From positions 18,724 through 82,723 of the forward strand of contig PKTA01000178.1 in the NCBI GenBank assembly GCA_002869365.1: a stretch of 64,000 nt of DNA, given 5' to 3'. The notes beneath the pieces are model-generated. The model searched no databases. It had not been told where the DNA came from and saw only the letters and a list, made by a program, of their open reading frames with translations. Position numbers and translations under genes: made by a program. The DNA comes from Marinilabiliales bacterium (GTDB lineage Bacteria > Bacteroidota > Bacteroidia > Bacteroidales > F082). Of this stretch, positions 49,704-59,401 are shown one piece after another. Within the stretch, counting starts at the first letter, position 1; each line of letters opens with the position of its first letter.

Positions 49704-52199
49704 TTAATTATTTAGTGTTTTATTTATTTCATTATCAAACGATTTAATGTAATTTTCAATTCCCTCTATATCAAAATGCTTTATTAAATAAGATAATTCT
49801 TTCGAAAAATTATTAAGTTGATCATTATTAAATTCGACAGCTAATTTTACTAATTTTTGATTAAAGGATTTAAAATGATCAAACATATTCGTTTCTTTGG
49901 CGACCCTAAACTCATTCTTTTGAAGTTCGAAAAGTTTGTTTACTAAGTCTTTATCAAAAGCGCGAAAGTCCAGTTTAATTTGAAATTCAGATTTTGAATT
50001 ATTATAATTAGACAAAGTGTCATTGATGATTGTTTTATGAGAATTTGGTTCAATTTTGTCGGATTTCAGAATTTCAATATCCTCAAATTCCAATGTAAAA
50101 ATGCTTCCTTTTCCCTCCTTGCTTTCGAAAGAGATATTACCATTAAGTACATCAATTAATTTTTTTACAATTGCTAAACCTAGTCCTGTACCTTCTATAT
50201 TGTTGGCTGATTCAATCTGGTAAAATGGTCTGAAGATATTTTCATATTCATTTTTGGGAATCCCCATGCCGTTATCCTTCACTTTAATTATTAAATCAGC
50301 CGACTCATTTTTTTTGTTTTTCACGTCAACAGTAACTTCGATTAACCCATTTGTTGTAAATTTTATGGCATTACTCATTAAGTTAAGCATTATTTGTCGT
50401 AGTCGTAAATCATTGAAATTTATAGTATTAGGTACTCTGTCGTTAATATTGAGTTTTAATTGATTATTTTTCTCTTTGGCTCTGTTTTCAAATATTAAAT
50501 TAAGTTCACTAAACAAGTTTTTAATGTCGAGAGGTTTGTATTTAACAAGAACTTTTCCTGCTTCGATTTTCGATAAATCTAAAACATCGCTGATAAGAAC
50601 CAGTAAAACTTTTGAAGAAACTTTAATGTTGTTTAAATAATTTTTTTGAATTTCGCTATCGAGTGTTTTTTCCAGTAATTCTGTATAACCAATTACCCCA
50701 TTTAATGGAGTTCTTATTTCGTGGCTCATATTAGCCAGGAATTCACTTTTAATATTATTGCTCTTCTCTGCTTCTTTTTTTGCGAGATATAGATCGTCGG
50801 CTAATTTTTTAAGATTGTATCTGGCTCTTTCTATCTCTTCATTTTTCTTTTTTAGAATTCTATTTGTTTTATTTTTAGAAGATAAATATAAAGCCAGAAA
50901 TGAAATTCCACCCATTGCCATTATAAAAGCTGCAAAAATTAGCCATGAATATATTCTTTGTCGCTTTAATTCCAGTTGATCAATTTTCGATTGTTGTTCC
51001 AATAATGAAATTAAGTTTTCCTGCCGTTCACTTTCGAAACTAATTTTCAAACTCGCAATTTCTTTTTGAAGCGATGAATTCATAATAGAATCACGGTACA
51101 TTTCAAATGTATCAGAATGCATCAGGGCCATTTTATAATTTTTGTCTTCATAATACAGTTTTTGTAGGGCTTTGTGAGCATCTTTAATGGTCTCCTTAGC
51201 CCCAATCCTTCTTGCAATTACTAAACTTTTTTGAATAAAATTATTAGCTAAATCATGATTTTCAAGTTTATAATTTATTAAACCTAAATGTAAATAATCC
51301 TGAGCCTGGAAAATTTTATCACCATGACTAAGATTAAGACTCAAAGCAAGTTGATAGTACTTTAAAGCTTGTTTGTATTTACCTTCTGCCTCATAAACAG
51401 CACCTAAATCCGAATAACAAATTCCTTGTCCTCTTAGTGAATTAATTTCTTTGTTTAAATCGAGAGAAAGATTATAGTATTCCTTTGCTTTTTTAAAATC
51501 TTTTTTCTGGAAATAAATATGCCCTAAATTATTAAGGTTTATTGCTTTACCAAGGTTGTCGCCTCGTTCTTCTTCTATAGAATAACTTTGCTTGAAATAT
51601 TTAAGTGCTTCATCGGTATTTCCAAGAATAAGTTGGATATTTCCAAGACTATTTATTGCTACAGACTGACTCTTTTTGTTTTTTGTTAATTCGGCTAAAG
51701 TAAGCGCTTTTTGATGATGATCTATTGCCTTTGAATACGCATTAATTCTACGATATACCACGCCCAGGTTATTGTTGAAAATTGCCCCCTGTTCTTTGTT
51801 GCCTGTTTGTTCTGATATTTCAAGGGCAAACTGGTGTAACATAATTGCTGTTGAGTATTCAGAATTATTTCTTTTTACAACACCTAAACTATCAACTATT
51901 TCAGCTAAATAATCAAGCATGCCTGTCTTGATTGCCAGGTCACGTGCTCTATTAAGGTATTTTTGGTTTCTGGTTGTGGATTTTATATCGCTTGAATCAG
52001 TAGTGATAATATTAATATAATCCAGTATCAATATACTGTCTTTTGATTTGATATTATTTTCAGAACTTATTGTGCTGTCAGAGGAAGGGTAATTAACAAA
52101 AGTTTTCTGGCTCAATACTTCTGATAACGAGAATATGTTTCCCCAAAAAATCAGTACTACTATAAGTCTTATTATAAACATATAAATGGATAATATCAA
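49704..52199 (-). CDS. TPR-TM histidine kinase
   Basis: TPR array; [64 protein letters not shown]. Confidence 0.92.
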
Positions 52200-55147: not shown

Positions 55148-55645
55148 ATGGCAGAAAAAGGTAATGAAACAGAAAATTTATCGAGGATAAAGGAAATATT
55201 ATTCGGCGAAGATTTAAGTAGTATTGAAGAGAGGTTTGATAATTTTAAAAATGAAAACATAGCAGCTTTTCAGGAAATTAAGAGTGATTTCGAAAAGAAG
55301 ATGGTGGAGTTTGAAAAATTATTAAGCCAAAAGCAAAAACAAACCGAAACTACTGTAAAAGAAACACAAGAAATACAGGAAACATTTAAAGATACCGTTG
55401 AAAAAAACATTAGCAATGTAAATCTTGAAATCGTTAAAGAGAAGACAAAAATTCAAGAAACAATTCAAAAAATTGAGGATAAGAATACCGAAAAATTAGA
55501 AAATCTGATTAGCGATATTAATAAATCAATTGCAGAGTTAAGAGACCTTCTAAATAGTAAGTTTGAAGAAATAAATGATAAAAAAATTGACTCTAAAGAT
55601 TTAGCCGATTTGTTCCAGTCGATAGCTGACAAACTCAAATCTTAA
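55148..55645 (+). CDS. Coiled-coil protein, first gene of GTPase/OmpA operon
   Basis: From ATG 55148: MAEKGNETENLSRIKEILFGEDLSSIEERFDNF followed by long charged heptad-like helices. Confidence 0.75.
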   Translation: MAEKGNETENLSRIKEILFGEDLSSIEERFDNFKNENIAAFQEIKSDFEKKMVEFEKLLSQKQKQTETTVKETQEIQETFKDTVEKNISNVNLEIVKEKTKIQETIQKIEDKNTEKLENLISDINKSIAELRDLLNSKFEEINDKKIDSKDLADLFQSIADKLKS

Positions 55646-55659
55646 CCAAAAAATTAGTA

Positions 55660-57396
55660 ATGATTTCAAAAGGAGATAATAAGGGTATATTTTCAGGTTT
55701 GTCGGACATAAAAATGAATGAACTGCGTAAGATGATCATTGGGCTCGATAATGAGGATATGAAGCGTCTTGCATTGTTTGTTAATGATCCGGAAGCATTT
55801 TCGGCAGAAATAAGTGAACTTTTGCCAAACAGCATTAATCTGATGCTTGAAAGTGGGAAAATTTCTTATTCAGACCTTGTACCGGTATTTGAAAGTATTC
55901 TTCAGGATAGCATAAAAAAAGATCCACATTCGTTGGCAAATATACTTTTTCCAATAATGATGCCTGCCATAAGGAAAGCTGTAGCAGAGGATTTAAAGAA
56001 AATGGTCGACTCTTTGAATACAACTCTCGAACATGGCTTTTCCCCAAAGAGAATTGGTTGGAGATTGCAAGCATTGTCTAGTGGCAGAACCTATGCTGAG
56101 ATAGTTTTGTCGCATGCATATATTTTTAGGGTTAGACAGGTATTTTTAATACATAAAAAGAGTGGGCTTCTTTTAAATGATGTAGTTGAAACCAGTCAAT
56201 CAGTAACCAAAGATGCCGATATGGTATCATCAATGTTAAGTGCCATAAAAGATTTCGTTCAAGATTCATTTGATGTTGAGGGTTCAAGCGAGTTAAATAC
56301 AATTAATGTAGGACAGTTTAATATATGGATAGAGCAAGGCCCTGAAGCAATTATTGCAACCATTGTTGACGGTGATGCTTCTGCAGAGTTGCGTGAACAA
56401 ATGAAAGATGCAATTGAGAAAATTCATCTTAAATATTCACTAGAACTTAGAAAATTTGATGGTGATACTGACATATTTACAAAAACAGAGCCTTATCTCG
56501 AAAAATGTTTATTAAGTGAACAAAAGGAAACAAAAAAGCGAAAACCTGTTACCATAATAGTATTATTTATCCTTGCACTTCTCGGATTAGGTTATTTATC
56601 ATATTTAAGTGTTAATAAGCATTTAAGAATGAGTGATATGGAAGACGCTTTAAATTCTGAGGCAGGCATCTTAATTACTGAGGATGAAAGTAGTGATGGC
56701 AAAACCGTTTTTATGGGATTACAAGATCCATTTTCTGTTAACCCATATATAATTGCCGAACAATTTGGTTTTGACACATCAGATGTTCATTTTAAACTTA
56801 AAAGTTATATTTCTCTTGACATATCTTTGGTACTAAAACGTGCTTATGCCGTGTTAAACCCTCCTCAAAAAGTAAAATTACGAATGGAAGGACAAACACT
56901 TTTTGTAAGTGGCGAGGCTGACGTAGAATGGGTTAATATGGCAAAGTTGCGATACTATTCAATTCAAGGAGTAAACAATCTTAATGTTCAGGAACTCAAA
57001 ATATTAACCAATAAAACGTTTATCGAAAAAAGAATGCTTTCCATAGAAGATTACTATTTTGAGTTTAAGTATTTGAAAGTTGAATTAACAGATGAACAAA
57101 AAATAAAATTCGCCAATTTGATTGATGAGGTAAATGAGGTTTTAGACTTTAATTTCTCACAGGATTCGGTACCCGTAATTGTTGTGATAGCACATACCAG
57201 TTATGAAGGAAATGCAGAGGCAAATAAAAAAGTAGCCTTTGAAAGAGCTCAGGAGTTTATTAACCTGATGATTAATGCTGATATACCTATGGAAGTTTTA
57301 GTCCCTAAAACTGATTATGTTGAAGATATTAATTATAAGTATCCGGTAAGATCTGTCTCATTTAAAGTTATTTATTCAAAACCTGAAGACTTATGA
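55660..57396 (+). CDS. Membrane protein: cytoplasmic longin/roadblock-like region, one TM, periplasmic BON-like and OmpA-like regions
   Basis: VRQVFLIHKKSGLLLNDVVE...DADMVSSMLSAIKDFVQDSF; TM PVTIIVLFILALLGLGYLSYL; KVKLRMEGQTLFVSGEADVEWV (BON-like); VIVVIAHTSYEGNAEANKKVAFERAQEFINLMINADIP (OmpA-like). Confidence 0.72.
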   Translation: MISKGDNKGIFSGLSDIKMNELRKMIIGLDNEDMKRLALFVNDPEAFSAEISELLPNSINLMLESGKISYSDLVPVFESILQDSIKKDPHSLANILFPIMMPAIRKAVAEDLKKMVDSLNTTLEHGFSPKRIGWRLQALSSGRTYAEIVLSHAYIFRVRQVFLIHKKSGLLLNDVVETSQSVTKDADMVSSMLSAIKDFVQDSFDVEGSSELNTINVGQFNIWIEQGPEAIIATIVDGDASAELREQMKDAIEKIHLKYSLELRKFDGDTDIFTKTEPYLEKCLLSEQKETKKRKPVTIIVLFILALLGLGYLSYLSVNKHLRMSDMEDALNSEAGILITEDESSDGKTVFMGLQDPFSVNPYIIAEQFGFDTSDVHFKLKSYISLDISLVLKRAYAVLNPPQKVKLRMEGQTLFVSGEADVEWVNMAKLRYYSIQGVNNLNVQELKILTNKTFIEKRMLSIEDYYFEFKYLKVELTDEQKIKFANLIDEVNEVLDFNFSQDSVPVIVVIAHTSYEGNAEANKKVAFERAQEFINLMINADIPMEVLVPKTDYVEDINYKYPVRSVSFKVIYSKPEDL

Positions 57397-57887
57397 TTAA
57401 AAAGAAAGTAGTAATGTTGGGTTCATTTGCTGTGGGAAAAACAAGTCTTGTACAGCAGTTTGTAAATAGTATTTTCTCCGATAAATATCAAACTACAATT
57501 GGAGTTAAAATTGATCAGAAAACTGTAAATATTGATGGGCAGGAAATAAATCTGCTCTTGTGGGATATTCATGGAAATGATGATTATCAAAAAGTAAAAC
57601 CTGCATATTTAATGGGTGCATCGGGTTGCTTTATTGTAATTGATGGTACCCGGAAAGCTAGCCTTGATGTGGCAAACGAACTCATCGAAACAGTGATTAA
57701 TACTATTCCTAAGGCTATAATAGTTATTTTGATAAATAAACTCGACCTCAAGGACGATTGGGATATTAATGCAGATGATATTAATGAATTGAAATCCAGA
57801 GGTTTTCAGTTGATAGAAACGAGTGCAAAAACAAATTACTCAGTTGATGAAGCATTCGATACCATTACCAAATTAATGATTAGATAA
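57393..57887 (+). CDS. Ras/Rab-like small GTPase
   Basis: G1 GSFAVGKTS, G2 TTIG, G3 WDIHGND, G4 INKLD, G5 ETSAK; ATGA overlap with preceding stop. Confidence 0.92.
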   Translation: MIKKKVVMLGSFAVGKTSLVQQFVNSIFSDKYQTTIGVKIDQKTVNIDGQEINLLLWDIHGNDDYQKVKPAYLMGASGCFIVIDGTRKASLDVANELIETVINTIPKAIIVILINKLDLKDDWDINADDINELKSRGFQLIETSAKTNYSVDEAFDTITKLMIR

Positions 57888-57889
57888 TT

Positions 57890-59401
57890 ATGCTGAAAAA
57901 TCTACCCAAAGAAATTGTAAAATATTTGGTAGAAGAACTACCTCCCTTTACAGGTTTATTATTGGTAAAAACTGATGAAAATGGAATCGTAAGAGGTTAT
58001 TATGGACAGTATTTAGATTATTTTACTGAAGAACCAAAAGTTGGTAATAGTATTCATGATTATAGCCCTGCACTTTTTTCAATGATTCCTCCTCTGGTTT
58101 CTCCCATGGTTTTGAACAATATCAAATCCACAACTCAAAATTATGCTGATATTCATATTATTGAAAGTTCAGTTAATGACTACTGGGTGATTTTCATGGA
58201 TCAAACAAATGAAGTTGAAAAAATTAGGGACATACTACAGCAAATAAATTCCAAAAAGTTAAAACTTGAATCAGGAAAGATAAAACCTGAAAAGAGTTTG
58301 TTCAATGTGTTCGAACATCTTCAACTTAAAGTTCTGGGTGAGAAAATTGGCATGATTGAGAGCCCTATACCTTTATGGTTTAAAAGTTTAAACCCTACGC
58401 ATAAAGAGGGTGATAGTATAGTTTATACTGAAACTTTTCCATACCTGGAAGTGTTTGAATATGAGGCTATAGAGTTCTGGGGGTGGCAAAATAACGGCAA
58501 GCTTAAATCAGGCATCTGGACTGAGACTACTTCCGACGGAAGAGAGATAACACTTAATGCCTATGCTATTTATTATAATGATGAAAAGTACCTGCTTGTG
58601 CAAGAGGTGGACGAGGGTTTAGATGGAACTCAAATGGCATTACAAATGGCAAGAGATCAGAAACTTGCCTATGAAAAACTTGAGAAGGCCGAAAGGAAAT
58701 TGAAAACCCTTTTAGAATATAAGGATAAGTTTGTTTCAATAGTTTCCCATGATTTGAGATCACCCGTGGCAGCCGTTTTAGGAATTGCGGAACTTTTATT
58801 AAATGATAAGGAGGAAATAGAAAAACTTTCCGACTTTAATAAAGATATGCTAGTGAGTATAAAGGAGGAAATGCTCCGTCTGCTCGATTATAACGATAAA
58901 CTTTATCATTGGTCGAACCTGGAATTGGGAAACTTTGAAATTGTTAGAGGTAAATCGAGTTTGCTAAAACTTATTGAAGCAGCTAGCCGTACTGCTGATC
59001 AAAAAATGAAAGCTAAAAACATTAGCTTTTCAACAAATTTGAAGGATAAAATACTTACTGTAAATGTGGATACTACACTGTTTCTGCAAGTAGTTAATAA
59101 CCTCATGGCAAATGCAATAAAATTTACTCCGGAAAACGGCAATATTTCCATTGATGTAAAGCAGGAAAAAAACAAATTAGAAATTGCTGTTGTTGATTCA
59201 GGTGTAGGAATGACTGAAGAAATAAGTAAAAATATTTTTAAAGGCTTCGCCAGAAGTAGTACGATGGGTACCGGTGGAGAAAAAGGGACCGGACTGGGAC
59301 TAGGTATTGTAAAAAAGATTATTGATGCTCATGGTTTTGAAATTCGTGTGGAATCGGAACCGGGTAAAGGATCTTCTTTTATAATTGTAATAGATGATTA
59401 A
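57890..59401 (+). CDS. Soluble PAS-containing sensor histidine kinase
   Basis: H-box FVSIVSHDLRSPVAAVLG; N-box NNLMANAIKFTPENG; DSGVGMTEE; GEKGTGLGLGIVKKIIDAHG; no TM segment. Confidence 0.9.
   Translation: MLKNLPKEIVKYLVEELPPFTGLLLVKTDENGIVRGYYGQYLDYFTEEPKVGNSIHDYSPALFSMIPPLVSPMVLNNIKSTTQNYADIHIIESSVNDYWVIFMDQTNEVEKIRDILQQINSKKLKLESGKIKPEKSLFNVFEHLQLKVLGEKIGMIESPIPLWFKSLNPTHKEGDSIVYTETFPYLEVFEYEAIEFWGWQNNGKLKSGIWTETTSDGREITLNAYAIYYNDEKYLLVQEVDEGLDGTQMALQMARDQKLAYEKLEKAERKLKTLLEYKDKFVSIVSHDLRSPVAAVLGIAELLLNDKEEIEKLSDFNKDMLVSIKEEMLRLLDYNDKLYHWSNLELGNFEIVRGKSSLLKLIEAASRTADQKMKAKNISFSTNLKDKILTVNVDTTLFLQVVNNLMANAIKFTPENGNISIDVKQEKNKLEIAVVDSGVGMTEEISKNIFKGFARSSTMGTGGEKGTGLGLGIVKKIIDAHGFEIRVESEPGKGSSFIIVIDD

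Follow-up and report, generated by a model that had tools for sequence, protein, structure and literature searches.

A predicted longin/roadblock domain in the membrane partner of a Rab-like GTPase encoded by a bacterial Group 1 Rup operon

The four-gene locus and its Group 1 Rup identity

The window analyzed here is a 64,000-nucleotide stretch of a Marinilabiliales bacterium genome (assembly GCA_002869365.1, contig PKTA01000178.1, positions 18,724 to 82,723), and the system in question is a four-gene operon encoding a coiled-coil protein, a membrane protein with a predicted longin/roadblock domain, a Rab/Ras-like small GTPase and a histidine kinase. The genes lie on the same strand, separated by a 14 bp gap, a 4-bp ATGA overlap and a 2 bp gap. 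Open reading frame calls reproduced exactly the coordinates and spacings given in the original prediction, which was made from the sequence alone, and the peptide it quoted was located in the 578-amino-acid (aa) product. Promoter and terminator scanning at the operon gave no signal above shuffled sequences, and its extent was accordingly set by the distances between genes.

55148..55645, + strand: coiled-coil protein gene, 165 aa from ATG (open reading frame call, family alignment)
55660..57396, + strand: membrane protein gene, 578 aa (open reading frame, alignment, AlphaFold, Foldseek)
57393..57887, + strand: Rab/Ras-like small GTPase gene, 164 aa, Group 1 Rup; G3 is WDIHGN, with no Gln; switch I is YQTTIGVKIDQK
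57890..59401, + strand: histidine kinase gene, 503 aa (open reading frame, domain search)

The GTPase matched Pfam Ras with an E-value of 2.7e-36, and its closest PDB sequences were Rabs. Its size places it among small (<240 aa) Ras-superfamily proteins, and it has eukaryote-like G motifs with an Asp in G3. All 28 GTPases compared contained WD in G3 and all 28 lacked the G3 Gln, which is replaced by Asn in the window protein and by E, D, S, N, G or T among its relatives. Hydropathy of the GTPase revealed one marginal segment, inside the G domain. Other PF00071 matches in the genome of the window were weak and fell in frames of at least 323 aa, and no Robl_LC7 (MglB-type) match was found in this genome (assembly 89% complete).

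Group 1 Rup systems were predicted in 2014 by Wuichet and Sogaard-Andersen (PMC4316618). Their neighborhood comprises a coiled-coil protein, a protein with an unknown domain followed by a transmembrane helix and an OmpA domain, a GTPase whose G3 lacks Gln, and an output protein in which one Gln of the N-terminal region is invariant. The same survey found the group very similar to eukaryotic Rab, Ran, Ras and Rho, with no member experimentally characterized and none coupled to MglB. The operon of the window shares each of these traits, including the absence of MglB, and no difference that excludes it was found. Its membrane protein is of the same family as proteins from Mesorhizobium, Rhizobium and Nostoc. 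Judged by all sequence and neighborhood features examined, the operon is a Group 1 Rup system. The four-gene arrangement had already been described in 2014 and is hence not new, which weakens the reading given in the original prediction.

A predicted longin/roadblock domain and a probable envelope half in the membrane protein

The 578-aa protein begins with a helical N-terminus, followed by the longin/roadblock domain, a transmembrane helix, two BON-like domains and an OmpA-like domain.

56092..56502, + strand: longin/roadblock-fold domain, residues ~145-281 (AlphaFold, Foldseek, profile comparison, conservation)
56215-56274, + strand: helix a1 of the longin domain, residues 186-205, its most conserved element
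56548..56604, + strand: transmembrane helix, residues 297-315 (hydropathy; N-side positive)
56662..57006, + strand: two BON-like domains, residues ~335-449 (AlphaFold topology; Foldseek to BonA, OsmY, DolP)
57013..57378, + strand: OmpA-like domain, residues ~452-573; Ser514 at the diaminopimelate (DAP)-contacting Asp position, Arg529 kept

Longin domains have the topology b-b-a-b-b-b-a-a and roadblock domains a-b-b-a-b-b-b-a. In the AlphaFold model, which was built with 29 sequences, residues ~145-281 are predicted to run helix-b-b-a-b-b-b-a-a, the longin/roadblock order. Foldseek searches of the PDB returned longins, namely the sigma chains of AP-1, AP-2 and AP-3 (best E 6.6e-5, TM-score by target 0.67). 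Further matches included MglB, among them the copy from an MglA-MglB complex, Asgard Roadblock3, and TRAPP and COPI chains. No query ranges were printed, and these matches were assigned to residues 145-281 by topology and alignment length. Profile-profile comparison of the domain with a roadblock alignment gave an E-value of 2.7e-4; in this one comparison, six control profiles scored 0.03-0.47. A longin/roadblock fold is therefore predicted with good support for the unknown domain of the Group 1 Rup partner, and the original prediction, which had placed such a fold in residues ~130-250, is borne out at the level of topology.

Sequence searches gave fainter signals. The 578-aa protein itself had no match in a sequence search against the PDB. 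Over 32 family members, 21 weak Pfam matches were obtained, all below significance: Fuz_longin_1 (FUZ/MON1/HPS1) was matched by most members (5/32), and Intu_longin_1 and Robl_LC7 also appeared, the latter in 1/32 relatives at E 0.097. Four PDB sequences matched, again all below significance, two of them being a roadblock and BET5, a longin of TRAPP. By the Pfam cut-off, which no match exceeded, the N-terminal half does not belong to the Robl_LC7/MglB family proper. Longin, roadblock, PAS and profilin folds are alike (PMC3521125, PMC10933270), and nothing firm came from single-sequence searches, so that the fold match might be superficial, with the N-terminal half adopting a PAS/profilin-like or different a/b fold and making no contact with the GTPase. 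We regard this as very improbable: the 50 Foldseek matches listed included MglB, roadblock, TRAPP and the AP sigma longins but neither PAS nor profilin, the PAS1 profile (see below) scored only E 0.47 in the comparison that gave 2.7e-4 for roadblock, and this protein and the GTPase are perfectly co-inherited, even where unlinked (see below).

Helix a1 of the longin domain scored 3.21 bits of conservation, compared with a mean of 2.42, and its residues Met192 and Ala195 did not vary among 32 sequences. The family alignment contained no invariant Arg or Lys across the domain. In Mon1-Ccz1 and TRAPP, the Rab-binding surface is built from the a1 helices of a longin pair (PMC5216073).

Hydropathy identified a single transmembrane helix in the 578-aa protein, as originally noted, with a lysine-rich flank (KETKKRKP) on its N-side; the scan found none in the coiled-coil protein or the kinase. 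Because positive charges precede the helix, the positive-inside rule suggests a cytoplasmic longin half and a periplasmic BON/OmpA half. Beyond the BON matches listed above, Foldseek paired the C-terminal half with the OmpA-type proteins Pal and OmpA. The Pfam OmpA match of the window protein (E 0.008) was below cut-off, whereas relatives exceeded the cut-offs for OmpA and for BON (the latter at loci L077-L079 and L067), and Pfam OmpA was matched at E up to 1 in 27/29 family members (best 5e-14). The BON- and OmpA-like segments of the original prediction are thus supported by fold and in relatives, with a faint Pfam signal from the window protein itself. By analogy with DolP, the BON domains might make contact with lipids. 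In rhizobia the membrane protein reaches 1021 aa (L065:6851-9916, L066:6884-9949) because its BON-like region is repeated, giving four tandem profile matches. In two relatives the gene is interrupted near residues 363-390, between the BON-like domains, by one in-frame stop in L023:5314-7050 (G004) and by a frame change in L035:8061-9793 (G019); assembly error, recoding and a real split are each possible.

Asp271 and Arg286 are the DAP-contacting residues of A. baumannii OmpA (PMC12108004). Since the Asp is replaced by Ser514 in the window protein, canonical peptidoglycan binding is doubtful, and the cell-wall anchoring envisaged in the original prediction is equally so: the Asp was present in 0/15 aligned family members, and the proteins of loci L080 and L081 stop after the longin region, with no transmembrane, BON or OmpA parts. 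As these two loci dispense with those parts, the core of the system consists of the coiled coil, the longin protein, the GTPase and the output.

A different role for the longin domain would be that of an effector or anchor that holds the GTPase at the membrane in the manner of Ragulator and the Rags, with exchange and hydrolysis carried out by unlinked proteins. The fused transmembrane and periplasmic domains would suit such anchoring, as would the lack of an invariant Arg or Lys, and roadblock/longin assemblies can be scaffolds (PMC5680233, PMC10933270). The operon encodes no other conserved candidate regulator, however, and Robl_LC7 is absent from the genome; moreover, MglB is likewise functional in most groups although it has no invariant catalytic Arg itself (PMC4316618). 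We consider pure anchoring distinctly unlikely.

Conserved neighborhood, co-inheritance and variable outputs

In 16/16 other genomes of the taxonomic family that contain a membrane-protein homolog, the genes follow one another as in the window (coiled coil, then membrane protein, GTPase and kinase), which argues that the arrangement is not due to chance. Neither result named in the original prediction as refuting it, a missing longin/roadblock fold or a neighborhood that is not conserved, was thus obtained. A divergent tRNA-methylthiotransferase-like pair still adjoins the operon at 8/16 of those loci. In genome G001, of the same genus, this pair lies within a contig next to unrelated genes, and no homolog of the four operon genes was found on the examined stretch around it. 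A search of 61 relatives likewise found neither the GTPase nor the membrane protein in G001. Because this genome keeps the flanking pair and lacks the four genes, these look to be kept or lost as a block. A TPR-containing histidine kinase (window positions 49704-52199) also adjoins the methylthiotransferase pair, a position kept in the genus, including operon-less G001.

The GTPase and the longin protein were carried by the same 17/61 relatives. They were also found in an identical 14/396 genomes sampled across the phylum, from 11 genera, and one of these genomes contained two copies of each. In this count a GTPase was taken as Group 1 at E < 1e-57, and one membrane-protein match (G357) was left out as not a family member, since it covers only the OmpA part. 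The probability of 14 identical picks from 396 is ~5e-26 on the assumption of independent genomes, which these are not, and ~1e-17 at genus level. Matches in G265, G281, G435, G009 and G052 (seven matches in the last) were rejected as long multi-domain GTPases. There, a Ras-like domain lies in open frames of ~700-1090 aa, perhaps of Roc type, in genomes with no longin protein. Among 72,556 plasmid records, only four carried the GTPase (one from Mesorhizobium, two from Rhizobium and one from Nostoc), and the same four carried the membrane protein. The Nostoc plasmid locus (L067) confirms that the cyanobacterial relative mentioned in the original prediction exists.

In genus g52 (three species) the operon is divided between two loci: one contig carries the genes for the coiled coil and the membrane protein, another those for the GTPase, a PAS1 protein and a kinase.

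L095, L096, L097 together with L072, L074, L075: split-system loci of genus g52

Because the pair still co-occurs on separate contigs, its co-inheritance is more than linkage. Across the genomes surveyed, co-inheritance of the Rab-like GTPase and the longin protein is strict and without exception.

The coiled-coil gene adjoins the membrane-protein gene at every locus except L071.

55178-55207, + strand: coiled-coil N-terminal motif LSRIKEILFG, near-invariant; K-I-R-D-I-L-F-G in relatives

Coiled-coil character was judged from sequence only, and the family was defined by shared terminal motifs. The N-terminal motif (I-R/K-D/E-I-L-F-G) is retained across Bacteroidota, rhizobia and Nostoc, and the family alignment shows a conserved C-terminal motif, K146...LADLFQSIADKL; the remainder of the protein is hardly conserved. 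The N-terminal motif is likely a docking peptide.

The window kinase carries two PAS-like domains ahead of HisKA, their tandem PAS folds being predicted with good support.

Kinase residues: PAS1 ~7-104, helix 106-127, PAS2 ~143-239, HisKA 278-345, HATPase 395-502; no transmembrane helix
58238..58240, + strand: Gln117 codon, in the helix after PAS1, invariant in 18/18 output proteins

Within the PAS1 input region, no internal residue is invariant except Gln117, which lies on the helix leaving the domain. PAS1 is common to hybrid kinases (L067, L080, L081), sigma-54 activators (L077-L079) and the adenylate/guanylate cyclases of the rhizobial plasmids (L065, L066). Because this input is constant while the outputs vary, PAS1 may read the state of the GTPase. 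In genus g52, PAS1 is a separate 307-aa protein encoded beside the GTPase and the kinase is a separate PAS2-kinase, a natural domain dissection of the window kinase. PAS1 was found in none of five lineages (G156, G239, G279, G291, G315) searched genome-wide at E 0.1, so it cannot be the GTPase reader there; their kinase has the PAS2 region at its start and is followed, in at least one of them, by an NtrC-like response regulator.

The invariance of Gln117 in outputs and the absence of Gln from G3 (0/28 GTPases) also suit a hypothesis stated by Wuichet and Sogaard-Andersen (PMC4316618), by which the missing Gln is supplied in trans. The output protein would then be a GTPase-activating protein (GAP) acting through Gln117, with the longin domain a scaffold or guanine nucleotide exchange factor (GEF). 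The five lineages lack the G3 Gln yet have no PAS1, and replacement of the G3 Gln by the kinase Gln is accordingly rejected as a universal rule. Gln117, on a linker helix leaving the PAS domain, may instead serve signaling inside the output protein. A GAP role for the output is a serious candidate that we nevertheless hold to be unlikely.

Proposed mechanism and comparison with known systems

The reading we prefer, at a probability of roughly 0.6, is that this Group 1 Rup operon encodes a Rab-like GTPase switch coupled to the envelope, with control by the longin domain and an output read through PAS. The coiled-coil protein and the cytoplasmic longin half would form a platform at the inner membrane, while the periplasmic BON/OmpA-like part would sense the envelope or place the complex. 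A longin dimer would bind the GTPase via helix a1 and set its nucleotide state, as GEF, GAP or both; MglB acting on MglA and longin pairs acting on Rabs are precedents for such control. The GTP-bound GTPase would act on PAS1 and the Gln117 helix, altering kinase activity, and the signal would pass from the kinase to an unlinked response regulator. The longin-GTPase binding, the direction of control, the GTPase-PAS1 contact, the response regulator and the envelope signal are the parts of this scheme that we infer. A membrane protein controlling the GTPase, with the kinase as output, would fit everything found.

Several observations weigh against the longin-controlled switch. The similarity of the N-terminal half to known longins and roadblocks is weak in sequence, and AlphaFold modeled the longin region with only moderate confidence (pLDDT about 49-86 by block). 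Helix a1 might owe its conservation to dimerization instead. The altered DAP-binding position and the five lineages with no PAS1 count against the envelope and readout ends of the scheme, respectively.

Added here to the 2014 description are the BON-like domains and, as seems new, the longin/roadblock fold of the unknown domain, the placement of the invariant Gln in a PAS context, the strict co-inheritance that extends to unlinked versions, and the wider outputs, namely sigma-54 activators and class III cyclases. Our literature search found no report of a longin domain in a Rup partner; subscription papers and most preprints were beyond its reach, and priority is not certain. A longin/roadblock domain in the constant partner would be a candidate for the missing regulator of Group 1 Rup. 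The PAS1-Gln module on kinases, sigma-54 activators and cyclases would, if the reading is right, be a general GTPase-reading input domain.

The longin/roadblock fold regulates related switch proteins in human cells, and the pairing of a Rab-like GTPase with a longin regulator is usually traced to archaea and eukaryotes. Such a pairing may exist in bacteria as a co-inherited module, and eukaryotic longin regulators might have come along with the GTPases from Group 1 Rup, an idea we consider speculative and rather improbable. That eukaryotic Rab/Ras GTPases descend, through gene transfer, from Group 1 Rup of bacteria was proposed in 2014 (PMC4316618). Joint descent, if true, would mean that switch and longin regulator were handed on to eukaryotes together.

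The longin-controlled switch, if true, would unify MglA, conservons and Rup as a Ras-like switch with a longin/roadblock dimer. Like MglA-MglB of Myxococcus and Thermus, the window system joins a Ras-like GTPase to a roadblock-type partner, and MglB structures were among the Foldseek matches. MglB, however, is small, soluble and recognized by Robl_LC7, whereas the domain predicted here is longin-like, with better TM-scores to AP sigma, and is fused to transmembrane, BON and OmpA parts; the window GTPase has the Rab-type G3 Asp that MglA lacks. The actinobacterial conservons (CvnA-D) are likewise operons with a histidine kinase, a roadblock protein, a further protein and a Ras-like GTPase. They differ in having an MglA-family GTPase, a free MglB-type roadblock and a membrane-bound kinase, in place of a Rup GTPase, a membrane-bound longin and a soluble kinase. 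Mon1-Ccz1, TRAPP and HPS1-HPS4 share with the window system a longin-type fold paired with a Rab-like GTPase and a conserved helix a1, and in Pfam the window family weakly matches two longin families, FUZ/MON1/HPS1 and INTU/CCZ1/HPS4. The lysine mechanism of Mon1-Ccz1 is not supported here: the switch-I Lys of its GTPase Ypt7 is not conserved and is Gln, Leu or His in these GTPases, the correspondence to Ypt7 K38 being set by alignment of the Y-x-x-T-I-G motif. Eukaryotic longin Rab GEFs use two genes, whereas the window system uses one, whose product is probably a homodimer and carries a periplasmic extension.

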